The notes beneath the pieces were generated by a model that was not told the origin of the DNA, did no database searches, and saw nothing but the letters and a program-made list of their open reading frames with translations. Made by a program: the position numbers and the translations under genes. Below, piece by piece: positions 1 through 46,220 of a stretch of DNA of 46,220 nt; within the stretch, counting starts at the first letter, position 1, and every line of letters starts with the position of its first letter. This stretch comes from a virus. Location: IMG/VR virus record IMGVR_UViG_3300030117_007787, positions 1-46,220 of that record. One strand, 5' to 3'.

Positions 1-23
1 GGGCCGGGAGGGATAGAGCCCAT
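1..23 (-). CDS. 5' end of the next minus-strand gene (partial, cut by window edge)
   Basis: Only the first seven codons (MGSIPPG) are inside the window. The ATG at 23..21 shares a base with the TAA stop of the 1127-residue gene (25..23), giving a TAATG stop/start overlap. The same junction is used between several other gene pairs here, which makes a real translationally coupled start likely. Nothing can be said about the product. Confidence 0.5.
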
Positions 24-18077: not shown

Positions 18078-18105
18078 ATTTAAATAGTGACTGTCATAGT
18101 TTTCT

Positions 18106-29448: not shown

Positions 29449-30309
29449 CTATTGTCCCTCTTTAGAGACCGCTCCCTCTATGTTTTTCCAGTCATATTCA
29501 TTTCTGACCTCTAGATTTTTTTCCCAAGTTGCAGTCATGACTTTTGGCTCAACGCCTATTTTATTAAATAATCCTATGAATGCATTTAAGTCTTTGGGGA
29601 AACATTTTCCACCAAATCCCATATGACCATCATGCCCAGGCACATCTAGGTGAGAATTACCAATTCTGCCATCAGACACAAAACCATTAAGGGCTTCATG
29701 CCAATTTACATCAAGGACTTGTGCAGCTTGTTTCATTTCGTTCATGAATGAAACTTTAGTTGAAAAGAAACAATTTGCCATATACTTGATGAATTGGGCT
29801 GTTGTGACATCTGTTTTAATTATCTTAACATGTGGAAATCTGTTCCTTAAAAATGGCTCAACTTTATTTATTAGGCCTGTTTCTCCACCTAGAATAATTC
29901 TAGATGCGTTTATAAAGTCCAACCTTGCACTGCGCTCAGTCAAAAATTCTGGGCTATGGACTATGTTTAGTCCTGGATATGTTTGTATTAGAGATTCCAT
30001 GGTCCCAGGGACGACAGTTGATTTAACTATAAAAATATTATCGTCCCTTTTATTCAATTCAGATATTTTTTCGAATACTGAATAGAGGATTGTTGTATCT
30101 ATTGAGCCTCCCAAAACACTCTTCATGGGCGTAGGAACAGATACAAAGATAAATTCAGATGCGTTCACCACCTCAGACATTGTGTGGGTGGCTCTATTAG
30201 GATTTGAATCATAAATTTTTACATTTGCATGCAATCCAAAACCGTGGGCCACAGCTGACCCAACAAAGCCATTTCCTATGATTCCAACATTATGCTTTAT
30301 ATTTTCCAT
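29449..30309 (-). CDS. UDP-glucose/GDP-mannose dehydrogenase family protein, lacking the C-terminal domain (286 aa)
   Basis: The NAD-binding motif GNGFVG (residues 12-17), the VPTPM motif, STVVPGT, SPEFLTERSA and the catalytic GGKCFPKD (Cys about 235) are all present, so this should be an active NAD-dependent oxidase of a nucleotide sugar C6 alcohol to acid. At 286 residues it is about 100 shorter than usual members (about 390-440): the C-terminal UDP-binding domain (PF03720) that closes over the nucleotide sugar is missing. The frame ends at a clean TAG with no visible remnant downstream. Its ATG lies 13 bases inside the end of the preceding GT2 gene. It may act on another substrate or need a partner. 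Product likely feeds the glycan cluster with a uronic acid precursor. Confidence 0.85.
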   Translation of the reverse strand: MENIKHNVGIIGNGFVGSAVAHGFGLHANVKIYDSNPNRATHTMSEVVNASEFIFVSVPTPMKSVLGGSIDTTILYSVFEKISELNKRDDNIFIVKSTVVPGTMESLIQTYPGLNIVHSPEFLTERSARLDFINASRIILGGETGLINKVEPFLRNRFPHVKIIKTDVTTAQFIKYMANCFFSTKVSFMNEMKQAAQVLDVNWHEALNGFVSDGRIGNSHLDVPGHDGHMGFGGKCFPKDLNAFIGLFNKIGVEPKVMTATWEKNLEVRNEYDWKNIEGAVSKEGQ

Positions 30310-30917
30310 GTCTCATACTCCGGTTCTTTAGTTTTGTTAGTGTTGTGCATTCTATATCTGTAGAAAGGGATTCTTAAATGATGTATTTTATAATACTCTC
30401 CCAATCTCTTTCTTAATTCCTCTTCTTCTCGATGCCTCATGTTTGGATTATAACCACCAAATTCTAATAGAAGATCTCTTCTATACATAATACCACAAGA
30501 GATATTGTCTTTTTCAGCATACTTTCTTTCAATTATATTTTCATAATCATCTACTAAAATATAATCACAAGAAACACAAAAAGCGTCGTGGTTGGTTTCC
30601 AAATACGTTTTCATAAAATAGGCCATGTCAGCACTCACAAAATCATCTGCATCAACACGTATCACAAACTGGCCCCTGGAAAGTTTTAGGCCTTCATTCG
30701 CTGCTGCTGCTACTCCCATATTGTGTTTATTTTTAATGACCGTTATGTAATTTTCAAAAGGCTTTAAAACTTCAATTGAATTATCAGTGCTCACATCATC
30801 CACAACTATAACCTCAACACTGGCCATGTTTTGAGATAAGCAGCTTCTTATACTCCTTGGGAGATATTTTCCATAATTATAGTTTGTTATAATAATAGAA
30901 ACTTCTGGGTTTGACAT
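30297..30917 (-). CDS. Family 2 glycosyltransferase, compact (206 aa)
   Basis: GT-A fold signatures: SIIITNYNYGKYLPRSI at the N-terminus, EVIVVDDVSTDNS (residues about 35-48), and RVDADDF near residue 87-93, the DXD-type metal/nucleotide-sugar site. Also typical is GVAAAANEGLKLSRGQFVIR. It ends shortly after the GT-A core, which is shorter than most GT2 enzymes, so acceptor specificity may lie in the last about 60 basic, Tyr/His-rich residues. No membrane helix, so it is cytoplasmic. The gene overlaps the next (dehydrogenase) by 13 bases and starts two bases after the epimerase stop, supporting one operon. Confidence 0.88.
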   Translation of the reverse strand: MSNPEVSIIITNYNYGKYLPRSIRSCLSQNMASVEVIVVDDVSTDNSIEVLKPFENYITVIKNKHNMGVAAAANEGLKLSRGQFVIRVDADDFVSADMAYFMKTYLETNHDAFCVSCDYILVDDYENIIERKYAEKDNISCGIMYRRDLLLEFGGYNPNMRHREEEELRKRLGEYYKIHHLRIPFYRYRMHNTNKTKEPEYETWKI

Positions 30918-30919
30918 TG

Positions 30920-31783
30920 CTATTTATTTCTCTCAATCCAACCAGAAACGTAACTTTGTAGATCATAATTTGGTATCCAGCTTAGTGTTTCTGTGCTCTT
31001 TGATATATCTGCTAATGTCTCCCATGCCTCGCCAGGTCGTGCAGGGATATAGGTAGTTTCAGCGCCAGTAAAGAACCCAGCTAGCTCGTTGATTGAGAAG
31101 TTTTCTCCTCGCCCTAAGTTAAACACTTCTCCTAAAAATTCTCCCTTGCTCATGGCAATGAGGCCAGAGCAAATATCCTTGACGTAGGTAAAGTCTCTCC
31201 TCTGTTCGCCGTTTCCTGTAATGGTTAGGTCCTGTCCAGTTCTAAATTGTCTTTCAAAAATGCCCACAACGGTTCCGTAAGGGCCTTCATAAGGTTGCCT
31301 CTCTCCATATACGTTAAAGAATCTTGCAATTGCTGTCTTTGTTCCATAGACTTCTGAGTACATTTTGCAAATCTCTTCTCCTTGCCATTTTGTAAAAGCG
31401 TATGGATTTAGATAAACTCCAGCATAGAAAGAACTTGAGCCAGCATAAACAAGCTTTGCGCCGACATTTCTTGCAAACTCGCATACCAGAGATGTACCAC
31501 GAGCATTTACATTAATTGTTTTCGCCGGTCTGTTAAAACTGGGTTGGATTCTAGCCAAAGCTGCCAAGTGAAAGACAACTTCAACATCTTTTAAATACTC
31601 TGGCGTTTCTCCAGAAAATACATCCAGTATGTCTTCAAAAATATATTTTGCATTTGGGTTGCAGTTTTCTTTTTTACCGGTATCTAAATTGTCAACAACA
31701 TATACTTCATTATCTTCAACAAGCATATCGACAAGGTTGCTTCCAACAAAGCCGCAGCCACCCGTAACCAAAACCTTAGACAT
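30920..31783 (-). CDS. NAD-dependent sugar epimerase/dehydratase, extended SDR (287 aa)
   Basis: Rossmann motif GGCGFVG at residues 8-14, the conserved Asp in YVVDNLDTG, catalytic Ser116-118 region (GSSSFY) and Y128-xxx-K132 (NPYAFTKWQGEE). The motif VFNLGRGENFSINEL is typical of UDP-glucose 4-epimerase-type SDRs. Length is slightly below GalE (about 330) but fits UDP-GlcA/UDP-GlcNAc 4-epimerases and dTDP-glucose dehydratase relatives. It should convert one nucleotide sugar at C4 (or dehydrate it). The exact substrate cannot be read. It lies between a GT and a GT2 gene, so it likely supplies one of their donors. Confidence 0.88.
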   Translation of the reverse strand: MSKVLVTGGCGFVGSNLVDMLVEDNEVYVVDNLDTGKKENCNPNAKYIFEDILDVFSGETPEYLKDVEVVFHLAALARIQPSFNRPAKTINVNARGTSLVCEFARNVGAKLVYAGSSSFYAGVYLNPYAFTKWQGEEICKMYSEVYGTKTAIARFFNVYGERQPYEGPYGTVVGIFERQFRTGQDLTITGNGEQRRDFTYVKDICSGLIAMSKGEFLGEVFNLGRGENFSINELAGFFTGAETTYIPARPGEAWETLADISKSTETLSWIPNYDLQSYVSGWIERNK

Positions 31784-31788
31784 AAAAT

Positions 31789-32571: not shown

Positions 32572-32573
32572 TA

Positions 32574-33275
32574 TTATTTTAGTCTCCGCTCGCAAAACAA
32601 TCTTAACTCAGATAATTCTTCCATAGTCATGGAACAAGAGTGGGCACCTTCTGTTTTACTTTGTAGGCCCTTGTCAATGGTAAAGTGCTTTTCAATAATA
32701 GTGGCCCCGCGAACAATAGCCTCCTTGCATGCATCAATTCCATCAGTGTGATCACTATACCCAACTAATCTGTCATCAAATGATGCTGGCATTAGATCTA
32801 ATGCCTCGTTAAGAGAGTGTGGATACTTTGAAACACAGTGAAAATATTTAACATTATCATCCTCAAAGGGATATTCGTCATCTGACCATGCACCAAGAGA
32901 GCAATAGGTAGTCATACCTGAGTTGATCATTTCTTGACATAGTTCAAAATCATGGCCCACAAGCATGCTAGCAATCTTGTTGACCTTTATACCAGCCTCA
33001 AGTATCCAAGAAAACCTGTCAGGATGAAAAGCAGAAGCAAAAAAATCGATATTTAGATTATCAGAAAACTCTTTTAGTCTTAGAAATTGTTCCCTTGTCA
33101 TGGAAAGATATTCCCAAATTTCTCTATTCTCTCCAGGCATCCTGTATGTATCATACAGTTGAACCTTGACTGCATCTGCTCCTGCAAGCTTAGATTGCAG
33201 TATCATTTGTTCGGCGCGCTCTACAGATCCGCCCCACTGCCCACACAATTCACTTATGATATACACTCTAGACAT
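32574..33275 (-). CDS. NeuB-like nonulosonate synthase, short form without SAF domain (233 aa)
   Basis: TIM-barrel features of sialic/nonulosonic acid synthases: ADAVKVQLY (31-41), FFASAFH (78-84), YSDHTDG with His176, and EKHFTIDKG with His197. The two His residues align with the metal ligands of meningococcal NeuB. These enzymes condense PEP with a hexosamine or mannose to give a nine-carbon acid (sialic, legionaminic, pseudaminic or KDN type). Typical NeuB is about 340-350 residues and has a C-terminal SAF/antifreeze-like domain; this protein stops after the barrel, leaving no such domain. The NeuA-like cytidylyltransferase lies one gene upstream, as expected for the same pathway. Which sugar is made is unknown; if active without SAF, it may resemble phospho-sugar synthases (KDN-9-P type). 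Confidence 0.82.
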   Translation of the reverse strand: MSRVYIISELCGQWGGSVERAEQMILQSKLAGADAVKVQLYDTYRMPGENREIWEYLSMTREQFLRLKEFSDNLNIDFFASAFHPDRFSWILEAGIKVNKIASMLVGHDFELCQEMINSGMTTYCSLGAWSDDEYPFEDDNVKYFHCVSKYPHSLNEALDLMPASFDDRLVGYSDHTDGIDACKEAIVRGATIIEKHFTIDKGLQSKTEGAHSCSMTMEELSELRLFCERRLK

Positions 33276-33278
33276 ATT

Positions 33279-34259
33279 CTAACTCCTACTCATGTAATTT
33301 ATTATTGTTTTTTCTGCCCGCTCTTTTCCAGAGTAGGGTGCATAATGTGAACAAGTCTGGCACACTGAGGCTAGCTTGCCTTTTAAGAAATTCGCTCTCG
33401 TTTCCTGTGCTTTATCGCTTTGCCAGATTTCTAACAAAGAGTTGTCATCGACATGCCCAACCACTAGCTCATCATATTCGGTTCCATTGTTGTACCTACA
33501 CCCGCACAATCTAATATGCCCATCCACCATTAGTGCTAGAAAAAACGTATAGTAACAAGGTTTATTCTTCTTCCCTATTGGAATGGCGGAGGCCAACTTC
33601 ATGTTGCCAGTTAAATCTTCCTGCTTGATTGACCCGCCCCAATTATCTAAATCTGTCACGAAGATAATAGAATCCTCATCAATGTATGGTTCTATAAACT
33701 TTTTGTAATCCTCAGTGTAAACTGACTCCTCTGCTGGGGAGTCGGGCTTTACAGAAAAATTAACCTTTATTGGTGAACCAGATTCCTTGTTTATTCTAAC
33801 AAATTCGTGGACACCTTTTAACATTCTTTTATATGTTTTTGTTCTATAAACCCTTTGGTATAAGCCTTCTTCGAAGCCTGGAACACTAAAAGTTACATTC
33901 GTGGGGCGGGCCTCTAAAAGCCTTTTTGGGTAGTCTTTTTTTCCCAAAAGAATACCATTAGTATAAAACCTAACTGTCTTAAAATACTCCTTGTTGGTAA
34001 CATAGTTTAGCTTATCAAATATCTTTGGGTCTACTAACAGATCACCAACCAAAGGAGTAAAATCAACAAAAGAACCACCCATATCTTGGTATTGGTCTAT
34101 TGTCTTAATGAAATGTTCTTCCTTCAAAAGTGCCTTTTTATCCGTGAGATATTGGTAGGCGCAAAAGGTACAGTTAGCGTTGCATATATTTGTAACATGC
34201 ACAGCTAATCTATCTGGGGGGTATAGATAAGCCTCTTGCCACTTCTTTTCAGTCTTCAT
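33279..34259 (-). CDS. Radical SAM protein with SPASM-like domain (326 aa)
   Basis: A CX3CX2C cluster at Cys26, Cys30, Cys33 (CNANCTFC) binds the SAM-cleaving 4Fe-4S cluster. The C-terminal about 90 residues contain further cysteines: CYYTFF near 235, LCGCRYN near 255 and CQTC near 300, a SPASM/twitch-like pattern for extra clusters. The core includes FTPLVGDLLVDP and RFYTNG, matching SPASM radical enzymes of sugar and peptide modification. Possible chemistry: dehydrogenation, dehydration, epimerisation or methyl/sulfur insertion on a sugar nucleotide or on a peptide. Its place between NeuA-like and NeuB-like genes argues for a sugar substrate (inference). It overlaps the NeuA-like stop by 11 bases (34249-34259), so expression is coupled. 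Confidence 0.88.
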   Translation of the reverse strand: MKTEKKWQEAYLYPPDRLAVHVTNICNANCTFCAYQYLTDKKALLKEEHFIKTIDQYQDMGGSFVDFTPLVGDLLVDPKIFDKLNYVTNKEYFKTVRFYTNGILLGKKDYPKRLLEARPTNVTFSVPGFEEGLYQRVYRTKTYKRMLKGVHEFVRINKESGSPIKVNFSVKPDSPAEESVYTEDYKKFIEPYIDEDSIIFVTDLDNWGGSIKQEDLTGNMKLASAIPIGKKNKPCYYTFFLALMVDGHIRLCGCRYNNGTEYDELVVGHVDDNSLLEIWQSDKAQETRANFLKGKLASVCQTCSHYAPYSGKERAEKTIINYMSRS

Positions 34260-34800
34260 TTTCTAAAAACTCTACGTCCTCTAGCGTGTGAACGTCATGC
34301 AAATCACAGACTACAACTCCACAGTTAGTGCTTAAATCTTCTTGAAACACATACTTACCCCTAAAAATTCTAAAAGCTGCGTTTTGCATTAGATTTGTAT
34401 CTACACTAAAAACTTCGTCTCTGTTGTGCTCTAAAAAAGTTTCTATGGCACTGTCTAAATGTTTAGATTTGATCTGAGGCGAGTTTGCTTGTAGAGATAT
34501 TACAATATCTGGCTGGGTTTCTTTAAATATATGTTTGGCAGCAGAACGTATGACAGCTTGCTTGTATACATGATCTCCGGACAATAAGGGGTCTCTATTG
34601 TGGATCTTGGCTCCGTAATCTAAAGCTATGGATTTAATTTCTTCATCCTCAGTGCTAACCCATGGCTGTATATCATACTTGGATTGTTGGCACGCCTTGA
34701 TGGCCCAGCTTATCATAGGATGACCCCAGATAGGATATATGTTTTTTCTTGCAAGTCTCTTGCTATTTCCCCTGGCGGGTATTATCGCTACAATTTTCAT
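34249..34800 (-). CDS. NeuA-like CMP-nonulosonate cytidylyltransferase (183 aa)
   Basis: Signature of acylneuraminate cytidylyltransferases at the N-terminus: IIPARGNSKRLARKNI (residues about 6-21), PMISWAI, and VSTEDEEIKSIA. SLQANSPQIKSKHLDSAI matches the LQPTSP-type motif with Ala in place of the usual Pro. At 183 residues it is shorter than bacterial NeuA (about 220-230). It would activate a nonulosonic acid as a CMP-sugar, a donor for transfer. The overlap with the DUF4910 gene is ATGA (34800..34797) and with the radical SAM gene is 11 bases. KdsB-like or other cytidylyl enzymes share the fold, so the exact sugar is uncertain. Confidence 0.85.
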   Translation of the reverse strand: MKIVAIIPARGNSKRLARKNIYPIWGHPMISWAIKACQQSKYDIQPWVSTEDEEIKSIALDYGAKIHNRDPLLSGDHVYKQAVIRSAAKHIFKETQPDIVISLQANSPQIKSKHLDSAIETFLEHNRDEVFSVDTNLMQNAAFRIFRGKYVFQEDLSTNCGVVVCDLHDVHTLEDVEFLENED

Positions 34801-36092
34801 TTTTTAATAATATTATTATCACGCAGAATATCAATATATTCCATGCATTGTTTAAAGTCAATATTTAAAACATTTGCTATGTCAACAACATCATGACCCC
34901 CGTCACAATAAAACAAAGCATTCATCATATTTATCAAATCGTATCTAGACTTCTGGTCTCCACCAGTCCTTCTCTTATGCCAGTCCTTTGGAACCATATT
35001 TCTTTTGCTCAACTTTGGTTCACAGATTACGGCAGATTTGTAGACATAATTAGACTCTAGCGCCTCAATACAACTTTTAACAATATTGTATCCACCAAAT
35101 AAACCCTCGGGGCTTATAAAATCCATATCATCTTTGGAGGTGTGGTACTCCGGGTAGGTGCCATACTTGGATCGCATGATAGTGACTAATGGTAGGTCTA
35201 CATTGGGGTGGCAATATTGCCTTTCGTCTGATCCTTTTTGCAGAAATGAATATTCATCGTAGCCATCTGTAAAATTATCAAACACATGTTTTGCCACTTT
35301 ATCAGTTAGAGTGCCTCCTAATCTAGATGGCATAAACGAATAATTGTTGTTATCACCAATACAAGTTACGTTGAACCCAGCGATTACATTTTTTTTCAAA
35401 GTGTCGTAATTCTTACTTATATAGGTTATCGCTCCTATGGTCTCTGGAGCAAAAACTACTCTGTATGTGTATCTTCTATCTTGCTCCAGTAGCCACTTGA
35501 TCAGATATGTCACTACAGCGGGGCCAGAACACTCGTTGTTGGCCATCGAAGGGTGGCAGATATAGGTTGTTAGGAAAACCTCTTCATTCGTCTCACCGGG
35601 GATTATAACCTCCCCGTATGTAAGAGACCCATCTTTTAGCTCGCTATCAATAAAAACAGTATATTCGCCTTCTTGTAACTTTTCTCTTTTCTCGTGCTCC
35701 AGGCAGAATCCCCATCGTCTGTTATAATAAGAAGTTACATAAGGTATCGCATCGGGGTAATCTGGGGCAGAATATAAATGCTCTTGTAGTTCCTTAAGGT
35801 TAATTTTTTGATTGACTGGCACTGAATAATTCACAACATGTAAATTACTGTCTTTAAAATCCACAATCTTGTTTCCGTTTGGATCCAAGATATATGCATC
35901 GTTTATGCTCCACTCTTGGGGGATTTCCCAGTCATAGGCTTGGTATCCTGTTGGCACCTCGTGAACATTGATCTCGCAAGAGATAGCATCCTGAATTATC
36001 TGTAGGGTTTTTCTATTGCCATTTCCAGTGATGCTTCGACAAATTGGAAACAACCTGTCGCACAGGTCGTATATTTCTTCGCCTATGTTCAT
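34797..36092 (-). CDS. DUF4910/DUF2172-type aminopeptidase-like protein with winged helix (431 aa)
   Basis: The N-terminus (CDRLFPICRSITGNGNRKT) and VPTGYQAYDWEIPQEW are characteristic of the DUF4910/DUF2172 family found in polysaccharide gene clusters. The central region is an M28-type zinc hydrolase core: YICHPSMANNECSGP (about 178-192), FAPETIGAITYI, and QYCHPNVDLPLVT plus YPEYHTSKDDMDF near 290-325. The C-terminal about 70 residues form a winged-helix module (ALFYCDGGHDVVDIANVLNI, DILRDNNIIK). In known clusters members are thought to process peptide- or amide-bearing sugars; the substrate here is unknown. It overlaps neighbours on both sides by ATGA (36092..36089 and 34800..34797). Confidence 0.85.
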   Translation of the reverse strand: MNIGEEIYDLCDRLFPICRSITGNGNRKTLQIIQDAISCEINVHEVPTGYQAYDWEIPQEWSINDAYILDPNGNKIVDFKDSNLHVVNYSVPVNQKINLKELQEHLYSAPDYPDAIPYVTSYYNRRWGFCLEHEKREKLQEGEYTVFIDSELKDGSLTYGEVIIPGETNEEVFLTTYICHPSMANNECSGPAVVTYLIKWLLEQDRRYTYRVVFAPETIGAITYISKNYDTLKKNVIAGFNVTCIGDNNNYSFMPSRLGGTLTDKVAKHVFDNFTDGYDEYSFLQKGSDERQYCHPNVDLPLVTIMRSKYGTYPEYHTSKDDMDFISPEGLFGGYNIVKSCIEALESNYVYKSAVICEPKLSKRNMVPKDWHKRRTGGDQKSRYDLINMMNALFYCDGGHDVVDIANVLNIDFKQCMEYIDILRDNNIIKK

Positions 36093-37165
36093 ACATCGTT
36101 CTCAAAAAAATCAAGTATTGCTTTTGATGAATTAAAGTCAGTGCTCGTTAGGCACTCTTCCTGGGCCTTCTTAAATTCAGAAGTAAAATCATTTGTAGTA
36201 AGATACTTTATTGCGTCCATGGTTTCATTTTTAGTTGAACCCTTCTTAAGACGCACTGCGTAATCATAATCATATAGCGGAGCGTACCCTATTAAGTCTT
36301 CAGTGTTCCCCAGGGCGTCGGATGGGCTTTTAACATGGAAATCAATTACAGGCTTATTTGCCATTACAATTTCCTCAATTGCGCACGAACCAAAATTAAT
36401 AATTAAATCACTTACATGTATAAGCTCCATTGTTGTATGTGGATGCCAGCTTTCATCTTCAAAATAGTGGTCTCCTCGCAGACTAAGCTTTATCGGCTGG
36501 GTTTTTCCGGCGATTCCAACTTCAATTGTGTTGTAGTTGGCTATAGGGTCTTTGCCTCTGGTTTTTACTAAAATATCGTACCCTTGCTCTTTTAATGCGG
36601 TGTAAATTCTCTCCATGTTTATTTTTTTTACATCCCTGCGCTTCGGAAAGACAACTAAAGCTTTCTTTGAATGTCTGCTTAAATTATATTTATCAATGAT
36701 TTTGTCAAACTCAAGGACAACATCAAATTTTGGGCTCCCTAAGAACAAGTTTTTTTTATAATTTGTTCCATAATAATCAGCGAAGAACTTGCTTGGCATT
36801 AAGATATGATCTGCCTTTTCTATATACTCATACCTTTTCTGGCCCGTAGTAAAATTGATAGCGAAAGTTAGCACTACAAATTTCTTATTTTTACCCTTCT
36901 CGATACTACTCATGCCCTGGTTCTCTACAAAAAAGAATATACCGTCATAGTCGACAGCCTCAGTAATATTGTGTGTTTGAACATTATACTTTCTTGCTAC
37001 ATCCAATATTTCATTCCAATTTTTTGGTTTAGATGGGCAGTTATATTTGTTTGATGCTTCAACAAAAATATGGCTTTCTATACCCCTATTATAAGCCTCG
37101 ATTATAATAGGTACAAAATACCTTAGTGAAGTTAGTTGATTTAGGGCAAAATTAATACTTTTCAT
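36089..37165 (-). CDS. CDP-glycerol/UDP-GlcNAc-2-epimerase-like GT-B protein (358 aa)
   Basis: Two Rossmann-type halves are visible. The second carries VVFPKRRDVKK, DILVKTRGK and DLIINFGSCAIEEIVMANKPVI, which matches the nucleotide-binding half of GT-B enzymes such as CDP-glycerol glycerophosphotransferases and UDP-GlcNAc 2-epimerases (S/G-x-x-x-E motif). The first half contains ADHILMPSKFFADYYG and LFLGSPKFDVV. The context of sugar genes supports a transferase or a hydrolysing 2-epimerase; ManNAc production by a 2-epimerase would suit a NeuB pathway, but nothing seen here separates the two choices. ATGA overlap with both neighbours. No membrane segment. Confidence 0.72.
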   Translation of the reverse strand: MKSINFALNQLTSLRYFVPIIIEAYNRGIESHIFVEASNKYNCPSKPKNWNEILDVARKYNVQTHNITEAVDYDGIFFFVENQGMSSIEKGKNKKFVVLTFAINFTTGQKRYEYIEKADHILMPSKFFADYYGTNYKKNLFLGSPKFDVVLEFDKIIDKYNLSRHSKKALVVFPKRRDVKKINMERIYTALKEQGYDILVKTRGKDPIANYNTIEVGIAGKTQPIKLSLRGDHYFEDESWHPHTTMELIHVSDLIINFGSCAIEEIVMANKPVIDFHVKSPSDALGNTEDLIGYAPLYDYDYAVRLKKGSTKNETMDAIKYLTTNDFTSEFKKAQEECLTSTDFNSSKAILDFFENDV

Positions 37166-37884: not shown

Positions 37885-37892
37885 TACAGTTC

Positions 37893-38789: not shown

Positions 38790-38810
38790 AACTTTTCCCA
38801 ATTACCGCCC

Positions 38811-39755
38811 CTATAGATCGACGTATTCTCCAGGCTTAGCCGTTTCTGGTCTAATTGGGTTTTTCATCCAACTCCCAGTTTCATCAATTGGCAGGCTCCA
38901 ACCACCAGCGGAAGCAACAACGTCCTCTATGCCAAGGGGAGTTTGTCTATTCCGTGCTTTTTCAATAATTTCATCGTAGTTAAAAATTTGATAGTATCTA
39001 AAGTCATCCTTAGATTCCCAGTATTTTCCATACCTCTTGTTTCCTCTTATGCGAGCATTTGTGCCTCTGGGGTCGGTGTATATCGCCACAGAAACTGGCA
39101 AAACCGGCATTGCGCACCCAACATTCAAATTATTTTGTTTAATTAATTCAAAAGTTTTTTGGAGCATTTTGGTCTCTGAATCGGGGCCTCCCTCAAAGGC
39201 GTCGTTCTCCTCTTCCCAGGGATAGATCATGTTGATAACTCGCCTACTAAACATTACGTCACCGGCCCCAGAGATTGGATACCTATTCCGATCAAATGCA
39301 AATTTAAAATCACTTTCCCCTTCTGGTGGTGTGAACGTGGTTCTTGAGTTTGTAACTCGTCTTTGAGCATCAAACGACATGCATCCCACATTTTGTATGT
39401 TTTTAGAATAAAACTCTACATATTCCCTAAGCCAACCTCCTTTTACCACAAATTGGCTATCCCCCTGTATTGGGCATACGAATTCACCCCTAGCCTCGCG
39501 ACAAATTAAATTTAACGCAACAGCAAACTCGTTTGCAGGATCTCTTTCTTTCTGTCGAAATACCCTAATCCCTTGCTTTTCTTTTTCAAGGAGATATTCT
39601 TCTGTACCCTCTTCGACTGAAGCGTTGTCAATAATCATTATTTCTTTGTTTGGGTAGTCTTCAGTGCAGACTAGCAGTGACTCTACGCAACTTTTTAAGT
39701 AAAAGAGTCGGTTGCAGTTTACAATTCCAAATGATACTAAAGGTAAATTTTTCAT
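38811..39755 (-). CDS. Family 2-type glycosyltransferase (314 aa)
   Basis: GT-A core: LVSFGIVNCNRLFYLKSCVE, EIMIIDNASVEEGTEEYL, FRQKERDPANEFAVALN and FVCPIQGDSQFVVKGGW, in which the GDS replaces a typical DxD. A GGPDSETKMLQ segment follows. The last about 90 residues contain RGTNARIRGNKRYGKYWE and VASAGGWSLP; similarly built GT2-like proteins occur in phage and capsular loci. No membrane helix. It lies nine bases after the methyltransferase gene. The lack of a canonical DxD leaves the activity less certain. Confidence 0.82.
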   Translation of the reverse strand: MKNLPLVSFGIVNCNRLFYLKSCVESLLVCTEDYPNKEIMIIDNASVEEGTEEYLLEKEKQGIRVFRQKERDPANEFAVALNLICREARGEFVCPIQGDSQFVVKGGWLREYVEFYSKNIQNVGCMSFDAQRRVTNSRTTFTPPEGESDFKFAFDRNRYPISGAGDVMFSRRVINMIYPWEEENDAFEGGPDSETKMLQKTFELIKQNNLNVGCAMPVLPVSVAIYTDPRGTNARIRGNKRYGKYWESKDDFRYYQIFNYDEIIEKARNRQTPLGIEDVVASAGGWSLPIDETGSWMKNPIRPETAKPGEYVDL

Positions 39756-39763
39756 TTTTTTTC

Positions 39764-40486
39764 CTATCTTAAAAATTTCCAGCCTATTCGACTGCTTCCA
39801 TTCTCTATATGTGTAAAAATATTCATAGTGTCTTTTCTGTATAGAATAATAGGCGGTTCGCCAGTGTAAAATTTATATGTACCCCACTCGGGATTGTTCT
39901 CTAAGAACTCATCAACGGCCCCTTTAACCCCAACTTTTTGTCCACAATCCACGGACTCTCTTGTCATTAAATTTTGAATGTTTTCATTTATTTCAGATTC
40001 GTCATAAAAGTTTCCATCTTGTTCTGAAAAATACTCATCCTGAGAGCCTCCCTCACCATCATAGTCATCGCATATTATAATCCCTTCTTCGTTCACTAGG
40101 GCCTGTGCGAATTTTAACTCTTCGCTAACAGTTTTATAATTGTGATCCCCATCAACTAGAACTGTTGAATATTTAAAGCCATCACTAGCAATCCTTGGTA
40201 GCACACTTAGGCTATTTTCTTCATAAAGTTGGATGAACCCGTTTTTTACCTCATTCCTCCAGTTTTCTGCATTTATATGATGACTGGCTATTTTAACGTG
40301 CTCTCTTAGAAGCACATCAACGCCAGTGTACAGAAATTTCCTTTCAGAACTATTGCATACTTTAGTAAGATAATTTGTGACAGGAAAAAGAGTTTGCCCC
40401 TTATCAACCCCTATCTCTAATACAGTGGGGTTGCTAAAGGATCCTGCAAACTTGCTAATAAAATCAATGTATCCGTGATATGCCAT
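39764..40486 (-). CDS. Class I SAM methyltransferase of the Methyltransf_24/CmcI type (240 aa)
   Basis: Motif I VLEIGVDKGQTLFPV (about 23-37), the ribose-binding acid in TGVDV, and VLVDGDHNYKTVSEELKFA (motif IV plus the typical D-H-x-Y-x-x-V) identify a class I methyltransferase of the CmcI/Methyltransf_24 group. Motif IIICDDYDG follows with two acidic residues that can bind a metal, as in catechol-type O-methyltransferases. An O-methyltransferase for sugar hydroxyls is likely. C-terminal residues form a beta-sheet cap. The gene starts eight bases after the isomerase stop. Confidence 0.82.
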   Translation of the reverse strand: MAYHGYIDFISKFAGSFSNPTVLEIGVDKGQTLFPVTNYLTKVCNSSERKFLYTGVDVLLREHVKIASHHINAENWRNEVKNGFIQLYEENSLSVLPRIASDGFKYSTVLVDGDHNYKTVSEELKFAQALVNEEGIIICDDYDGEGGSQDEYFSEQDGNFYDESEINENIQNLMTRESVDCGQKVGVKGAVDEFLENNPEWGTYKFYTGEPPIILYRKDTMNIFTHIENGSSRIGWKFLR

Positions 40487-40494
40487 GCTTATTC

Positions 40495-41295
40495 CTATCT
40501 AAAGTTGTTTTTTAAAATCTGTAAGGCAGACTTTATATTTTTCTCAGTTGTTGGGCGCATTTCAACCGAAACAGCACCATCATATTTAATTCTTTTCAGG
40601 AGGGAATTTATTAAGGTAAAATCAATCGTACCGCCAGTGACGGGTTCTAAGTTTGGAGAGCTTACATGAAAATGAAAGATCTTTTCCCCTGCTTTCAGTA
40701 TAGATTCTGTCAGATTTTCTTCGTTCATTGTTAGAGTGCTAGCATCCATGTTTAGTTTGAAATTGGCGTGGCCTACGTGGTTAATCAACTCTAGCGCCTG
40801 TGAGGTGGTGTTTATAAAATTACAACCATATCCCTCCGCATTAGGTTCTAAGCACAATACTACATCATTTTCACTACATGTTTTAGACAAATCCCAAAAA
40901 AAATCAGATGCAATATCTTGCGCTTCATCGAGTGAAATCCCGTGCCTGTATCTGTTTTTAGGAGACCCAAACACCATTCTCTTAACTCCTAGTTGGGCCG
41001 CTAATTTTATAATTTCTTTTAAGTATTTAGATGTCTCTTTGCGACATTCTGTGGTATCGAAGATTTTAAGGTGCGGATTTCCATATAGCAAGGCTTGCAT
41101 TCCATATATGCTAATACCCTGGTTATTCCAGTATTTCTTCGCCGTTAAGACTTGCTCCTTGGTTGCCTCTATTGGATTTTCGAAGAGGATCTTTGGGGCA
41201 ACCTCTATATTCTTAATATCATATTCTTTTAATAATGGAACAATGTTGTCATTGTCGTCTGGACTCCACGCTATATTTGATATGCACTTCTTCAT
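40495..41295 (-). CDS. Sugar isomerase/epimerase, AP-endonuclease-2-type TIM barrel (266 aa)
   Basis: Features of the xylose-isomerase-like TIM barrel (PF01261): SNIAWSPDDNDNIVPLLKEY, KNIEVAPKILF, GVKRMVFGSPKNRYRHG, VLCLEPNA, NFKLNMDAST, FHFHVSSPN and VSVEMRP. The E, D, H and E residues placed at the barrel ends fit a divalent-metal sugar isomerase/epimerase. Which sugar is acted on is unclear. It is co-transcribed with an SDR and a methyltransferase, so a hexose or its CoA/nucleotide derivative is a likely target. An AP endonuclease (Nfo) is excluded by context and by the missing Nfo signatures. Confidence 0.82.
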   Translation of the reverse strand: MKKCISNIAWSPDDNDNIVPLLKEYDIKNIEVAPKILFENPIEATKEQVLTAKKYWNNQGISIYGMQALLYGNPHLKIFDTTECRKETSKYLKEIIKLAAQLGVKRMVFGSPKNRYRHGISLDEAQDIASDFFWDLSKTCSENDVVLCLEPNAEGYGCNFINTTSQALELINHVGHANFKLNMDASTLTMNEENLTESILKAGEKIFHFHVSSPNLEPVTGGTIDFTLINSLLKRIKYDGAVSVEMRPTTEKNIKSALQILKNNFR

Positions 41296-41296
41296 A

Positions 41297-42049
41297 TTAA
41301 TTTAAAACAAACTCTCTAATTTCCCTCATAGCACATTCTTTAGAATAAAGGTACGCATCATTTGAATTGTAAAGTTCTCCGTACTGCGACTGCATATCTG
41401 TCTTAAAAAAATCTCCTTCCTTTTCCTCCAAGGTTTTATTAAAAACGCCCTGTGCTAAGTCTCTGGCAGTAATTGGCTCAACCGCTATATTTATAACTTC
41501 TATATTATTCTTTATAGCCTTTCGTATATCGTCGTGTAGATTATCAACGCAATAAAGTTGCACCTCAGCCCTTGGATCAATTTTTTCCACCTGATTATTG
41601 TTTATCAAATCAAAAATAATATTCTTTTTAAACCTGTGGCCGTACACTATTGGCAAACGAAGAACAGTGTGATTGGCAAACCTACTTCTTATGAAGGTTT
41701 CAAATTTATATCTATGAAGCCCATACGCTGATTGGGTGTTTGTATCAATTTGATTTGCCTCTGTGACTCCAATTGGATTATCATAAACATCAATTGTGGA
41801 TATTAATACAAATCTATTTGCACTTATTGTCTCTATGCAAGACATTAGCAATTCAATATTTTTCCAATCATCCTTTGGATTTTTGTTTGCTAGCCATTTT
41901 GTTCCATAATTGCCAGCACAGTATACCGTATCAAATTGTCTGCCAATAATATCAACTATATTTTTTGAATTATAAAGCAATGCACCTTGGTTATTTTCAG
42001 CAAGATGGCTGCCAATAAACCCAGTGTGTCCTATAACACAATCTCTCAC
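41297..42049 (-). CDS. Short SDR-type nucleotide-sugar epimerase/reductase, Y-x-x-x-R (250 aa)
   Basis: Rossmann loop GHTGFIG (residues 7-13), central LISTIDVYD (82-90), then SAYGLHRYKFE: the usual Tyr109 is present but the catalytic Lys is replaced by Arg113. VLRLPIVYG follows (typical R-l-p-x-v-y-G). At 250 residues it lacks the longer C-terminal lobe of GalE/RmlB-type enzymes. An active NAD-sugar enzyme is plausible but the Lys-to-Arg change makes it uncertain; some SDR groups carry this pattern. ATGA overlap with the preceding FAD-oxidoreductase gene (42049..42046), one base before the isomerase gene. Confidence 0.8.
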   Translation of the reverse strand: MRDCVIGHTGFIGSHLAENNQGALLYNSKNIVDIIGRQFDTVYCAGNYGTKWLANKNPKDDWKNIELLMSCIETISANRFVLISTIDVYDNPIGVTEANQIDTNTQSAYGLHRYKFETFIRSRFANHTVLRLPIVYGHRFKKNIIFDLINNNQVEKIDPRAEVQLYCVDNLHDDIRKAIKNNIEVINIAVEPITARDLAQGVFNKTLEEKEGDFFKTDMQSQYGELYNSNDAYLYSKECAMREIREFVLN

Positions 42050-43137
42050 AAAAGACCATCCTCTTCAATTCTGCTAACAAGCTTTTCAGCCACAACAGCT
42101 GCTGAAATAAACTTGCCTTCCAAGATTGAATAGAACCCACTTCTACAATTGTGCTCTCTAATTTTGGTCTGCCTATCGTCGCTATCCTCAGTTTTTACAA
42201 GAATCGGCCTAGAAGCAACGTTTGATCTTTTATAAACTAGGTCTTTCATGAATGGAAAATACTCCATACCATGGGAGAGCATCTCAGGCCACATAGAATT
42301 AATCTCGTCTGGCCTAGAATAAAAAAGTCCCCTCTCTCTAGAGACAACAGAGTGGATAACATCATAAACTAGGTACTCATCCTTTGTACCAACATTGGGA
42401 AGTATGGTGATAAAAGGGCCGTCCATAACTGTTAGAGGGGGGATATATTTATCACTCCCAACTACAGCCACTTCAGTGGTCTGAAGGTGGTATTCGCTCA
42501 ACTCTTCATTGACCGAAAAAGCTTGTTGAACATTATTGGTATATGCGTAAGTTGCATTAATAAGAATGTCGGCGTTTAGAATCAAAGACTTGCCATTACT
42601 ATTGGAGATACAAATTTTATTATCACTTAAAAAATCCCCTTTTGTAACGTCGAAAGACGTAATTAAACCAATCTTTCCTTGAGTCACGAGATTTAAATAA
42701 TAGTCCTTAATCTTCTTGAGATTAAAGCAGGGCTCGTTTACAAGAAAAGAGGAATCAATATTTGTCCTGTCTAAAAGTTTGTCGCTTGGCCAAGTTAACC
42801 GATAGTCCAGGTCAAGAGCTTGACAAAAATCAATATACTGCTGGGTTGTTGTTTTTGTATTATTTTTTTCTATGAAGTAATAAAATTCTTTTGGGTACGA
42901 GAGGAACTCAGGAAAGTATTCTTCAAAGTATCTTAATCCAGCAATACATTCCTTTGCTGTATCAATCGACCTGGGATAGTGGAATCCACTGTGTGCCCTG
43001 TTGTGAGTGGCTCCAGAGGCTCCTTTAAATATACCATCAAATTTTTCTATTACAGTTACCGAAATACCTTTTTTTGATAATTCATCAGCACACGAAAAGC
43101 CATGAATCCCTCCCCCAATTATTACAGCATTTTTCAT
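42046..43137 (-). CDS. FAD-dependent oxidoreductase, DAO family (363 aa)
   Basis: The FAD-binding GGGIHGFSCADELSKKG (residues 8-24) with the acidic residue of VIEKFDG, and ASGATHNRAHSGFHYPRS, are typical of D-amino-acid oxidase/L-2-hydroxyglutarate dehydrogenase-like (PF01266) proteins. LILNADILINATYAY is the second conserved FAD-contact segment. Members in surface polysaccharide clusters oxidise amines or hydroxyls on sugars, but the substrate here is unknown. I chose the ATG at 43137, which forms an ATGA overlap with the methyltransferase stop; an upstream GTG would add four residues. It ends with an ATGA overlap into the SDR gene. Confidence 0.84.
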   Translation of the reverse strand: MKNAVIIGGGIHGFSCADELSKKGISVTVIEKFDGIFKGASGATHNRAHSGFHYPRSIDTAKECIAGLRYFEEYFPEFLSYPKEFYYFIEKNNTKTTTQQYIDFCQALDLDYRLTWPSDKLLDRTNIDSSFLVNEPCFNLKKIKDYYLNLVTQGKIGLITSFDVTKGDFLSDNKICISNSNGKSLILNADILINATYAYTNNVQQAFSVNEELSEYHLQTTEVAVVGSDKYIPPLTVMDGPFITILPNVGTKDEYLVYDVIHSVVSRERGLFYSRPDEINSMWPEMLSHGMEYFPFMKDLVYKRSNVASRPILVKTEDSDDRQTKIREHNCRSGFYSILEGKFISAAVVAEKLVSRIEEDGLL

Positions 43138-44177
43138 TTTACAGCACACATAATGCCCACCTCGCCAGGCCCACCATCGATCTCGTAAGTAATTTTCATT
43201 TTTAAATCTTTTTGTAGGAAAGACCTTACCGTGTCGTATTTTATATTGTGCAAATAAGGTGTTTGTAAATCCTCAAAATGTAGAGCATTAATAATCTGTT
43301 CAAAAGAATATTTTTGGGATAAACTCAACATTTGGTTGAGAACTGGGAGATATTTCTTATTTCCTAAAATGTTCAAGACAGAATCTGCATCCTTTTCCTC
43401 TAGCTCTTCAATAGCTTCAATTGTATCAAACACTAGTTGTGGAGGGAGTGATAAAAATCTTTTTCTAAAGTCATATGTTATTTGTGGTGTTGTCCCTTCT
43501 CTGAAGAAGTTGAGCATAAGAACCCCCTGGGGTGTCAAAACATTATGTAAATCACTCAAAGTTTTAGCAGGATCTCTTGTGTGTTGTAGGGCCATATGAT
43601 GAATAACAGCATCAACTTTTAAATTAGCCTCATCAAAGAAAGATCTAATATTTTCCATGTCCCCTTGGATGCTAATATGCTTTCTCTGTAAATTTTTTAT
43701 ATCTCTTAATTTAACTAAAGGTTCGTATCCCTCGGCACTGTAGGTATTTGATGGTCTGTCTTGGGGCGAAAGCATGCCAAAGCCGCCCTTCTCATTATAA
43801 TTTTCAGGAGCATTTTTCTCTCTTATTCTATCAGACGTGCTCTGGAGCCCATTGTAAGACCCGTCATAAGAAATTACAAATTTAGCTCTCTTCTCCAAAG
43901 CAGCTATTGAGAATCTGCCCAGCCCGCTGCATGCATCTAAAATAATCGCCTTATTTAAAAAGTCTAGTGGCCGACCAGACAATAAGTTGAGCAAGAAAAC
44001 TCTATTTCTTCCCCATTCATCACTTGTTTTTTCTTTCTTACCAGCATGCCGTTTTGCCTGTTTTTTCCACATTAAGTTGTATATCTCTTCACTTTTCGGT
44101 CGATTAAAAATATAAACATCTCCCTTTTTTTCTAATTTTGAAACAAACTTATCAATTTCTAAACAATCATATCTCAT
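43134..44177 (-). CDS. Class I SAM methyltransferase (347 aa)
   Basis: Motif I IILDACSGLGRFS (residues 78-90), then the acidic residue in ISYDGS, and VDAVIHHMALQHTRDPAKTL (motif IV plus the post-motif helix) mark a Methyltransf_11/25-type enzyme. A long C-terminal half (about residues 220-347) is helical with a Leu-rich part and ends GPGEVGIMCAV. A sugar or glycan methylation role is likely given the neighbours. ATGA overlaps link it to the carbamoyltransferase (44177..44174) and the FAD oxidoreductase (43137..43134). Confidence 0.85.
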   Translation of the reverse strand: MRYDCLEIDKFVSKLEKKGDVYIFNRPKSEEIYNLMWKKQAKRHAGKKEKTSDEWGRNRVFLLNLLSGRPLDFLNKAIILDACSGLGRFSIAALEKRAKFVISYDGSYNGLQSTSDRIREKNAPENYNEKGGFGMLSPQDRPSNTYSAEGYEPLVKLRDIKNLQRKHISIQGDMENIRSFFDEANLKVDAVIHHMALQHTRDPAKTLSDLHNVLTPQGVLMLNFFREGTTPQITYDFRKRFLSLPPQLVFDTIEAIEELEEKDADSVLNILGNKKYLPVLNQMLSLSQKYSFEQIINALHFEDLQTPYLHNIKYDTVRSFLQKDLKMKITYEIDGGPGEVGIMCAVK

Positions 44178-45805
44178 TTTCTGCTTACCAAAATCCCTTC
44201 ATCATAAAAGTACAAATAGTCAATTTCTGTCTTTAAATAACAATTAATGGCATGTTCGGGCGTTTCACATATTGGTTCCCTATCGTTAAAGCTTGTGTTT
44301 AACAAAATAGGAACACCTGACTTCTTGTTCCATCTAGATAGTAGATCGTAATATCTTTCATTGTCGCTTTTTGTAACTGTCTGTAATCTTGCGCTCCCAT
44401 TTAAATGGACCACTGCTGGGACCTTTTCTTTCACCTCATCTCGAAAGTCCACAACAAAGCTCATGTAAGGACTATCAATATCCTTAGTAAACCAACTTGA
44501 GACGTGTTCCCTTAAAATTGAAGGGGCAAAGGGTCGGAACCACTGCCTATGCTTTACTTTAAAGTTTATTTTATCCTTCATATCTGGGGATCTAGGGTCG
44601 GCCAGAATGCTCCTGTTTCCAAGTGCTCGGCGTCCTGATTCTGAACCTCCTCCGAATACGGCCACGATATTTTGCTCATCAAGAAGATCAACTACCCTAT
44701 CAATATCACATTCGTCGTATGTTACGTTGTCTTTGTTTTTGTCTACTGCTGCCATGATCTCATCTTTGCCGTAGGTAAATCCTAAATATGGCGTATAGTT
44801 ATCCTCCCATCTAATTCTAGGGTTATCTAGTACATGATGCCAGACATATTGAGCTGCGCCAAGCGTTAGCCCCCCATCGTGCGGGGTAGGCGTTACGTAC
44901 ATGTTATCAACCCTATTAGAAAACCAGTCTAGCATTTTTCCCATTACAACAGAGTTTAGCGCCACGCCTCCTGCAAAACATATATTTCTATGTACAGGGA
45001 CTTGATCTAGGATGTTTTGAATTAGCCCCTTTAAATACTCTTCTGTTGCGTACTGTAGGCCTGCAGCTAAGTCAAACTTGTCTTGCTCACTTTGGTCCGC
45101 TATGGTTCTCCACTTATTTAAATATGGGTGTATCGGGTCCGTTCCCACATTAGCACCTCTTGGTTGATTATGTGGTTTGTGTGCCGCTGCTGCCATGTCT
45201 CTTGTCAGCATAACCATGAAGTCATCAAAATACTTTTCTTTATCCCCCATAGCAGCCATGGCCATTACAGTGCCAGCTTGATGTCCTGTTGGCCAGCCAG
45301 ACTGCAGGTTAAAGACATATCTTGTAACTCTTGTCCAGACGCCGCCAATGTTTAGCTGAGATAGAGGGAAAGTGTGCAAATGTTTAATTTTTGTTCCTTC
45401 ACCACTCCAAATCGTAAAAGCAGTTGTAAGCCTATCTTTATTTTCTATTCCCCCACCATCCATCGTGAGGATTAATGCGTCCTGAAAATTACTAGAGAAG
45501 AAAGCGTTCGCAGCGTGCGCCTGGTGATGTCCAATTACATGAAACTCACCCCCATTGCTATCCACTATGTTGTTAATCTTTTCATACGATTCCTTGTAGG
45601 CTTCAAGTTTTTCAGAAAGATGAACCGTGGCAAAATGCTTTATATCGTCATGTTCTGGGTATTCATCAAACATAAACTGGACCCCATCACCATAAGGCTC
45701 CTTTTCTCGTATGTACCTTTCATACTCGGCATGCACCACTGGCCTACCGTTATCTAAAATACAAAATGAACAGTCATGTCCAGACCATGCGCTAGCAATC
45801 TTCAT
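44174..45805 (-). CDS. O-carbamoyltransferase, NodU/CmcH family (543 aa)
   Basis: All main signatures of the family occur in order: WSGHDCSFC (residues 7-15), GHHQAHAANAFF (92 onward), LTMDGGG, AGTVMAMAAMG, CFAGGVALNS, GGGSESGRRALGNRSILADP, FRPFAPSIL and LLNTSFNDREPICETPEHAI. The first two-thirds is the Kae1/TsaD-like domain that makes carbamoyl-adenylate from carbamoyl phosphate and ATP; the C-terminal part is the YrdC-like transfer domain. It should put a carbamoyl group on a sugar hydroxyl. I chose the ATG at 45805 because AAAGGG lies eight bases upstream; a GTG at 45814 in the same frame lies too near that site. It sits one base after the cupin stop. Confidence 0.95.
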   Translation of the reverse strand: MKIASAWSGHDCSFCILDNGRPVVHAEYERYIREKEPYGDGVQFMFDEYPEHDDIKHFATVHLSEKLEAYKESYEKINNIVDSNGGEFHVIGHHQAHAANAFFSSNFQDALILTMDGGGIENKDRLTTAFTIWSGEGTKIKHLHTFPLSQLNIGGVWTRVTRYVFNLQSGWPTGHQAGTVMAMAAMGDKEKYFDDFMVMLTRDMAAAAHKPHNQPRGANVGTDPIHPYLNKWRTIADQSEQDKFDLAAGLQYATEEYLKGLIQNILDQVPVHRNICFAGGVALNSVVMGKMLDWFSNRVDNMYVTPTPHDGGLTLGAAQYVWHHVLDNPRIRWEDNYTPYLGFTYGKDEIMAAVDKNKDNVTYDECDIDRVVDLLDEQNIVAVFGGGSESGRRALGNRSILADPRSPDMKDKINFKVKHRQWFRPFAPSILREHVSSWFTKDIDSPYMSFVVDFRDEVKEKVPAVVHLNGSARLQTVTKSDNERYYDLLSRWNKKSGVPILLNTSFNDREPICETPEHAINCYLKTEIDYLYFYDEGILVSRK

Positions 45806-45806
45806 G

Positions 45807-46166
45807 TTAATCACCCTTTATAATTCTGTAGCTGTCTTCATCAAAATGTTGTGTAGAAAATTCAAACAATTCTGTGTCCTCCAAAGCGATCATTTGGTGC
45901 CTTAGTCCCCTGTAGACATGGAAATTATCACCAGGGCCCAAAGTAATCCGTCCTACATTTTCTATGTCATCTTCCTCAGAAAACTTTACAAGTATGCGAC
46001 CAGATTGCACATAGAAAACCTCATCTTTAAGTTTATGATAATGCCACGAACACCTTTTTCCTTTAACAAAATAAAGCAGTTTGCCACAGTATTCTTCACA
46101 GTTAACAATCCACTTTTCAAATCCCCAACCTTTTGGAACAAGCTTAATTGGCAAAGAAGTCTTCAT
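45807..46166 (-). CDS. Cupin-fold sugar-binding or isomerase protein (119 aa)
   Basis: Both cupin motifs are present: motif 1 SWHYHKLKDEVFYVQSGRI (with His42, His44, Glu49) and motif 2 GPGDNFHVYRGLRHQM (His90), which set a metal site. Small one-domain cupins near nucleotide-sugar genes act as sugar epimerases, isomerases or mannose-6-phosphate-isomerase-type C domains. I chose the ATG at 46166, seven bases after an AAGGA site (46178-46174); a double-ATG places an alternative start at 46169, and GTG codons farther upstream would overlap the preceding gene deeply. The gene overlaps the end of the HAD-like gene by about 23 bases. Confidence 0.82.
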   Translation of the reverse strand: MKTSLPIKLVPKGWGFEKWIVNCEEYCGKLLYFVKGKRCSWHYHKLKDEVFYVQSGRILVKFSEEDDIENVGRITLGPGDNFHVYRGLRHQMIALEDTELFEFSTQHFDEDSYRIIKGD

Positions 46167-46220
46167 CATTAATTCCTTTGTCGTCAACGTAAACGTCACC
46201 ACTTGGCTTTCCTAAAAGCA
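46144..46220 (-). CDS. C-terminal end of a probable HAD-type sugar phosphatase (partial, cut by window edge)
   Basis: Only the last 24 residues fit in the window: LLGKPSGDVYVDDKGI then NDEDFFAN and a TAA at 46146..46144. The GKPSGDVYVDDKGI string is the kind of C-terminal K-P-x-x-D-x-y-i-D-D-k motif seen in small HAD hydrolases of capsule and lipopolysaccharide loci, which remove a phosphate from a sugar phosphate. The frame is open to the window edge. A HAD phosphatase next to NeuA/NeuB-like genes would fit a phospho-sugar route. Family assignment from such a short tail is tentative. Confidence 0.6.
   Translation of the reverse strand, partial: LLGKPSGDVYVDDKGINDEDFFAN
46174..46178 (-). promoter_or_regulatory. 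Ribosome-binding site deciding the cupin start
   Basis: Minus-strand AAGGA lies within the last codons of the HAD-like gene, seven bases before the ATG at 46166 and four before the ATG at 46169. It supports the short start over the GTG codons near 46202. Confidence 0.5.

Follow-up and report, generated by a model that had tools for sequence, protein, structure and literature searches.

T4-like cyanophages such as P-SSM2, S-SM2 and S-SSM7 harbour "LPS (lipopolysaccharide) biosynthesis" clusters, the function of which has been questioned (PMC3037559), and cyanophage glycan clusters have been read as blocking other phages (PMC7824862). Elsewhere, flagellin is glycosylated in the cytoplasm via a NeuB-dependent route, with a cytidine monophosphate (CMP)-nonulosonate donor and a soluble transferase (PMC7591256), and mycobacteriophage glycosyltransferases act on capsid and tail tube proteins, as cited in PMC12619734. 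It has been asked ever since their discovery in cyanophages whether glycan clusters in large environmental phages act, and on what. The present analysis concerns a sugar-gene island at 29449–46202, on the minus strand, in the IMG/VR virus record IMGVR_UViG_3300030117_007787 (the window, meaning the whole stretch of 46,220 nucleotides, positions 1 to 46,220 of that record). Comparison of the sequences indicates that the island is a phage glycan cluster of the cyanophage type, not orthologous to that of P-SSM2.

P-SSM2-type clusters (Kyanoviridae) are like the island in belonging to large T4-like phages. They consist of ~15 contiguous soluble glycosyltransferase (GT), epimerase and methyltransferase genes (PMC3037559), and the P-SSM2 cluster, as in the window, lacks a membrane protein. 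However, in the parts of P-SSM2 compared there is no match to NeuB, NeuA or the GT-B-fold protein of the island (g23), and the two have no more in common than an epimerase (39%) and a distant carbamoyltransferase (29%). The P-SSM2 cluster adjoins hli03, whereas the window island adjoins gp55-like and baseplate genes. A sequence-only reading of the window had called such a pathway unusual, a description that is not supported, given the clusters documented in large T4-like cyanophages (PMC3037559, PMC7824862).

Flagellin O-glycosylation (NeuB/PseI, a CMP-sugar synthetase and FlmG or Maf) offers a parallel of another kind, as it combines a phosphoenolpyruvate (PEP)-dependent synthase, CMP activation and a soluble transferase with no membrane step, and its acceptor is a protein bound for a helical surface structure (PMC7591256). 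In comparison, no Maf or FlmG homologue was identified in the island, and its NeuB has no SAF domain. Beyond mycobacteriophage virion glycosylation, the island would also make its own sugar donor and many decorations. Phage C48C1 (Kyanoviridae) has a short UDP (uridine diphosphate)-glucose dehydrogenase of 319 amino acids (aa) next to a nucleotide-sugar epimerase, like the g15–g17 pair of the island, but among replication genes instead of in a glycan island. This pair is an already known part, common with Kyanoviridae. New features are the NeuA/NeuB/GT-B/GT2 core, which does not vary, its location near gp55 and baseplate genes, and an altered, SAF-less synthase.

Core and variable genes of the island

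Relatives were found by scanning 2.9 million viral contigs of IMG/VR with NeuB and NeuA alignments. A related island is present on 25 contigs, ~21 of them distinct; most are genome fragments, with genes called as simple picks of open reading frames (ORFs). The order g23–g21–g19–g16 (GT-B-fold protein, NeuA-like CMP-sugar synthetase, NeuB-family synthase, short GT2 glycosyltransferase) is kept in all 25, while the number of intervening genes varies. A module that recurs in 25 related contigs is not a product of chance. Homologues of g15, g17 and g25 occur in 21–23 of the 25 (23 for g25), whereas most other window genes are rare (g20 in one, g22 in three and g32 in three). This layout is that of an O-antigen locus, with a fixed backbone and exchangeable decoration, and the fast turnover of the outer genes, with the core held fixed, suggests that variation in the surface chemistry of the virion is selected for.

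The core is also more conserved than the gp6-like baseplate protein. Mean pairwise identity is 68% for g16, 62% for g19 and 61% for g21, against 35% for gp6, with the core higher in 20 of 21 pairs; therefore, the core is maintained by selection. The most conserved island protein is g16 (61–75% identity over all pairs). Its distances track those of gp6 (rho 0.84), which is most simply explained by shared descent under strong constraint; g15, g18 and g25 track gp6 poorly.

The closest relative is a contig of 161.7 kb (G001), with a gp6 78% identical and a sigma factor 91% identical to those of the window. It encodes a terminase, a portal, a T4-type major capsid protein and a DNA polymerase. From the terminase and capsid sequences of this relative, with which the gp6 of the window agrees, the window is judged to be a genuine T4-supergroup phage. 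Of the 17 records in which a gp6-like baseplate gene was found, 16 have it 11–23 kb from the NeuB gene; the exception is G021 (~54 kb), and G006 has the reversed order. As in the window, a gp55-like sigma homologue is located downstream of the island in 14 of 25 loci. The genes of the window that matter here are as follows.

46144–46220, minus: C-terminal tail only, cut by the contig end, of a haloacid dehalogenase (HAD)-type phosphatase, judged by its motif; the frame ends ...LLGKPSGDVYVDDKGINDEDFFAN*
45807–46166, minus: g33, cupin of 119 aa counted from the ATG at 46166 (longest ORF to 46202); PHROG "cysteine dioxygenase"
44174–45814, minus: g32, NodU/CmcH-type O-carbamoyltransferase of 546 aa; profile match
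43134–44177, minus: g31, class I methyltransferase; profile match
42046–43149, minus: g30, DAO-type flavin adenine dinucleotide (FAD) oxidoreductase; profile match
41297–42049, minus: g29, short-chain dehydrogenase/reductase (SDR) or epimerase; partial profile match
40495–41295, minus: g28, sugar-phosphate isomerase/epimerase-like TIM barrel; AP_endonuc_2
39764–40486, minus: g27, methyltransferase; Methyltransf_24
38811–39755, minus: g26, GT2 glycosyltransferase; profile match
37893–38801, minus: g25, GT4-like glycosyltransferase; weak Pfam match
37162–37884, minus: g24, sulfotransferase-like protein; weak match (E 0.0014), under the Pfam cut-off
36089–37165, minus: g23 (core), GT-B-fold protein, likely a transferase; no Pfam family, predicted fold nearest NeuC and TagF
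34797–36092, minus: g22, DUF4910/DUF2172 M28-like metallo-hydrolase with a winged helix; profile match
34249–34800, minus: g21 (core), short NeuA/PseF-like CMP-sugar synthetase of 183 aa; PF02348
33279–34259, minus: g20, radical S-adenosylmethionine (SAM)/SPASM enzyme; profile match
32574–33275, minus: g19 (core), SAF-less NeuB-family PEP-dependent synthase (predicted) of 233 aa; PF03102
31789–32595, minus: g18, GT-A glycosyltransferase; Glyco_transf_7C
30920–31783, minus: g17, NAD (nicotinamide adenine dinucleotide)-dependent sugar epimerase/dehydratase (SDR); profile match
30297–30917, minus: g16 (core), short GT2 glycosyltransferase of 206 aa; profile match
29449–30309, minus: g15, short UDP-sugar dehydrogenase of 286 aa; profile match
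29255–29434, minus: ORF of 59 aa bridging the island and the sigma operon; the closest relative has a similar sequence
27745–28446, minus: g11, gp55-like late sigma factor (context, outside the pathway)
15846–17642, minus: g05, gp6-like baseplate wedge (context)

Enzymes of the core

The g19 protein scores 101.6 bits against the Pfam NeuB domain (cut-off 22.1), but stays under both NCBIfam equivalog cut-offs (100 versus 399.65 bits for NeuB and 77.6 versus 340.25 for PseI). Its AlphaFold2 model shows a complete eight-strand barrel, with a mean predicted local distance difference test score (pLDDT) of 87, and the structural neighbours of this model are 6ncs as the best, followed by PseI and NeuB. 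The 290-residue chain of Leptospira 6ncs, the nearest solved relative, is short too. Canonical NeuB has ~350 aa, and its C-terminal SAF/antifreeze-like domain supplies the essential Arg314 (PMC6795526). By contrast, the homologues of g19 have 226–251 aa (apart from one second copy of 274 aa in G023), the protein ends after the barrel in all relatives, and the SAF domain (PF08666) is encoded nowhere in 15 records. One phage (contig 3300017706_002620) carries the short NeuA/NeuB pair plus a second, longer and more canonical pair (216/274 aa).

Residue positions of g19 were mapped on Neisseria meningitidis NeuB. The PEP/metal site is kept in 23 of 23 proteins (Lys53, Gln55, Lys129, Ser213, His215, Glu234 and His236, with Glu25 as E or D), whereas sugar-side positions are replaced in all 23 (Asn184 by S, A, P or C, and Asp247 by A or G). 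Thus, g19 shares the (beta/alpha)8 fold, the PEP and metal residues and PF03102 with the NeuB/PseI/SpsE synthases (TIGR03569, TIGR03586; N. meningitidis NeuB), and differs from them in the missing SAF domain and Arg314 and at the positions of Asn184 and Asp247. Since the PEP/metal side is intact and these two residues are lost, g19 is predicted to be a PEP-dependent synthase with an altered sugar acceptor.

The g21 protein matches PF02348 with 79.3 bits, scores 97.4 against the PseF equivalog (cut-off 205.7) and is ~40 aa shorter. The g15 dehydrogenase keeps the NAD and central domains and the catalytic Cys motif (the Cys is present in 24 of 24 proteins), without the C-terminal UDP-binding domain. 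Both g21 and g15 are short in the relatives as well, and are therefore not frameshifts. Pattern scans covering 84,980 species of bacteria and archaea turned up nothing closely related to the short NeuB or the short NeuA; the exact short peptide patterns used would miss divergent homologues, and "phage-specific" means here that no close cellular relative was seen. For g19, isolate phages yielded only one match, a NeuB-like stretch with 26% identity in a single-cell virus record of marine origin; for g21, they likewise yielded only one, a NeuA-like stretch with 41% identity in a record derived from Moritella. A literature search on phage-borne NeuB returned nothing usable.

The remaining non-GT2 member of the core, g23, has no Pfam or NCBIfam match, no significant relative in a sequence-profile search of the PDB and no match among isolate phages. 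Its model is of the GT-B type (pLDDT 87), with a fold nearest to NeuC/UDP-GlcNAc (N-acetylglucosamine) 2-epimerases and then to TagF/TarL. A role as NeuC epimerase was considered and rejected, as PF02350 is not matched and two phages hold a genuine PF02350 protein besides g23. As the genuine NeuC-type epimerase coexists with it, a transferase is favoured; g23 is likely a transferase and possibly the user of the CMP-sugar.

Between g23 and g21 lies the hydrolase gene g22. Bacterial DUF4910 genes are found in polysaccharide loci beside NeuB-family, pseB–pseI or rhamnose genes (plasmids NZ_CP021332, NZ_CP074394 and NZ_CP015065), and an unrelated viral contig (L012, 8067–11017) has a NeuA–DUF4910–full-length NeuB run, which links these hydrolases to nonulosonate-type loci.

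Acceptor, expression and competing explanations

Three roles had been offered by the sequence-only reading: glycosylation of virion proteins, remodelling of the host envelope and hypermodification of DNA. Among them, the evidence favours virion protein modification. The explanation proposed here, which is given an even chance of being right, is that the island is a phage-owned cytoplasmic glycosylation system for virion proteins, with a nonulosonate-like sugar. In such a system, g19 would condense PEP with an aldose other than N-acetylmannosamine (ManNAc) into a nonulosonate-like acid, or one like 3-deoxy-D-manno-octulosonic acid (Kdo), which g21 would activate with cytidine triphosphate (CTP). 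Then g23 and/or g16, with other soluble glycosyltransferases, would add the acid sugar and uronate-derived sugars stepwise to Ser/Thr of virion proteins, in the cytoplasm and before assembly, in the manner of Maf/FlmG on flagellins. A decoration specific to each phage may come from the variable genes (carbamoyl-, methyl- and sulfotransferase-like genes, radical SAM, DUF4910 and FAD oxidoreductase). This explanation is supported by the core order in 25 of 25 contigs, the proximity of gp6, the conservation of the core, the intact PEP/metal site, the lack of membrane components and the flagellin precedent (PMC7591256).

More tentatively, it could be a phage-specific pathway across a wide T4-like group, in which the SAF-less synthase would yield an acid not known from cells, the short CMP-sugar synthetase would activate it and strain-specific decoration would amount to a virion serotype; this extension is possible but doubtful. 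With the invariant core, the problem comes down to four small, soluble proteins accessible to expression and assay, and the predicted product is an acid sugar that is activated by CMP and attached with no membrane step. If this is true, such virions would wear a variable glycan coat of their own, and the PEP-dependent sugar synthases would gain a new branch.

The lack of membrane components was examined by several searches. In a hydropathy scan, the islands of the window, G001, G010, G002, G003 and G006 showed no gene with a transmembrane segment, and those of G004 and G007 had only isolated single segments in a few ORFs; none of these eight islands encodes a multi-span flippase, polymerase or ligase. 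The flippase Wzx is absent from 10 of 10 records, and the priming transferase PF02397 and Wzy/WaaL PF04932 from 15 of 15, while the controls in these searches gave matches. The earlier label of a "nearly self-contained surface-sugar factory" is consequently not supported: without host machinery the island cannot place a sugar on the cell surface. With soluble enzymes only, a phage can use soluble acceptors (virion proteins or DNA) or has to borrow host export.

Regarding expression, the T4-type late promoter TATAAATA was tried and discarded, being rare and not upstream of window genes. In this phage group, 13 copies of the octamer ACTATTTA stand upstream of genes where 0.3 would be expected, a 42-fold enrichment, and ACTATTTA and ACTAATTA are mostly placed ~25–70 nt before virion and other genes in G001. 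Sites of the motif ACTAWTTA, that is ACTA(T/A)TTA, are found at 18081–18088 (minus) in the window and, for example, at 44775, 45192, 65422 and 95484 in G001. From its placement, ACTAWTTA is a putative late promoter element unlike the TATAAATA of T4. Transcription of the island probably comes from upstream, together with the sigma gene or ahead of it, a timing compatible with donor preparation before assembly but also with early host remodelling.

Several points weigh against virion protein glycosylation. No acceptor was identified, as a search for Ser/Thr-rich proteins gave only the Thr-rich tail of g01, suggestive at most. ACTAWTTA does not rise above background in the island, nor does it in the sigma operon, and co-expression of the island with the capsid is therefore not obvious. 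With a host flippase and ligase, the soluble glycosyltransferases could just as well act at the membrane, and the missing export genes are not proof when the relatives are mostly genome fragments. As to g01 itself, this large protein beside the baseplate genes has a Thr-rich C-terminal tail, TPTRNGDGTPKTSNNTTTTASTPRTTGG, at window 23–170 (residues ~1080–1127), which is a candidate O-glycan acceptor.

The main rival, possible rather than probable, is host-envelope remodelling. Here, with the priming transferase, flippase and ligase supplied by the host, a new outer sugar would be placed on host LPS or capsule intermediates, so that superinfection is blocked or progeny are kept from binding debris. 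Cyanophage clusters have been read in this way in the literature (PMC7824862). The island is like an O-antigen locus in its gene content and its variable middle, the DUF4910 homologues of bacteria lie in O-antigen/Pse loci, and the missing late-promoter matches fit an earlier expression. However, no export, priming, polymerase or ligase gene appeared in the records searched, nor a multi-span protein in the eight islands, and a core so strongly constrained across very different phages is unexpected if the sugar is fitted to the glycan of each host.

An improbable alternative is a secondary-metabolite-like cluster, which would yield a small diffusible metabolite or a modified nucleotide-sugar and no macromolecular glycan. 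A second cyanophage cluster with carbamoyltransferases was interpreted in this way (PMC7824862), and the window holds a carbamoyltransferase, a radical SAM/SPASM enzyme and an FAD oxidoreductase, but the several glycosyltransferases per island and the conserved GT2 core point to glycan assembly.

The third of the roles offered earlier, in which glycosyltransferases decorate modified bases of the phage genome, is very unlikely. DNA glucosylation occurs in T4-like phages. Phage glycosyltransferases that hypermodify DNA are likewise cited in PMC12619734. Nevertheless, no thymidylate-synthase-family pyrimidine hydroxymethylase was found in 15 records (TET/JBP-type routes were not searched for), which makes DNA modification less likely, and carbamoyl-, sulfo- and methyltransferases together with NeuB/NeuA suit a glycan better. 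Finally, functionless stuffer, degenerate host DNA or an assembly chimera is hardly credible: the idea of "stuffer DNA" has come up for LPS genes in cyanophages (PMC3037559), but the ORFs are intact, the same junction recurs in independent contigs, and the conservation of the core, in order and beyond that of gp6, refutes it.

Gene content and phage neighbourhood

The claim of at least 18 consecutive same-strand sugar genes was confirmed by 19 complete minus-strand ORFs of 119–546 aa each, with spacing below 10 nt or overlap at 18 of 19 junctions (counting that to the next operon gene). Gene labels come from Pfam/NCBIfam profile searches, plus PHROG for some. Profiles support most of the enzymes proposed from the letters alone: NeuB, CTP_transf_3, UDP-sugar dehydrogenase, TIM-barrel sugar isomerase, cupin, carbamoyltransferase, two SDRs (one strong, one partial), GT2/GT7C transferases, two methyltransferases, the DAO-type FAD oxidoreductase and radical SAM/SPASM. 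The sulfotransferase has only the weak match given above, and two genes had been missed, namely the DUF4910/M28-like hydrolase and the transferase-like g23. The HAD tail was recovered, its frame ending at 46144; therefore, the most likely start of the cupin is the ATG at 46166, and not the GTG at 46202. This g33 is a probable sugar-modifying cupin.

Downstream of the island and without a real gap come the 59-aa ORF, an FmdB-like gene, the gp55-like late sigma, a lysozyme-like gene and then the gp25-like and gp6-like baseplate genes. The sugar pathway is thus phage-borne and beside tail genes as had been proposed, with the first four of these intervening before the baseplate. The junction near 29.4 kb is genuine: an assembly chimera was rejected on the same junction in independent contigs and the flat composition (GC content, and GC at third codon positions, across 29.4 kb). 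No near-identical bacterial chromosome segment was found, and the window lacks an integrase.

By terminase, capsid and gp6, the nearest isolates include Flavobacterium phage immuto and Microcystis phage Mel-JY01. No annotated sugar island was seen in the corresponding stretches of these two phages, and a DNA-level search of isolate phages with 29.0–36.9 kb gave zero matches. Apart from the island, the window encodes giant tail-region proteins at 4442–14182 (3246 aa) and 18106–25116 (2336 aa; no PHROG match). The island of G001 (10739–33100) uses a different sugar route, with a fused RpiB–nucleotidyltransferase, a PfkB kinase, a class II aldolase, a transaldolase and GT9, and is flanked upstream by PhoH and a PD-(D/E)XK nuclease.

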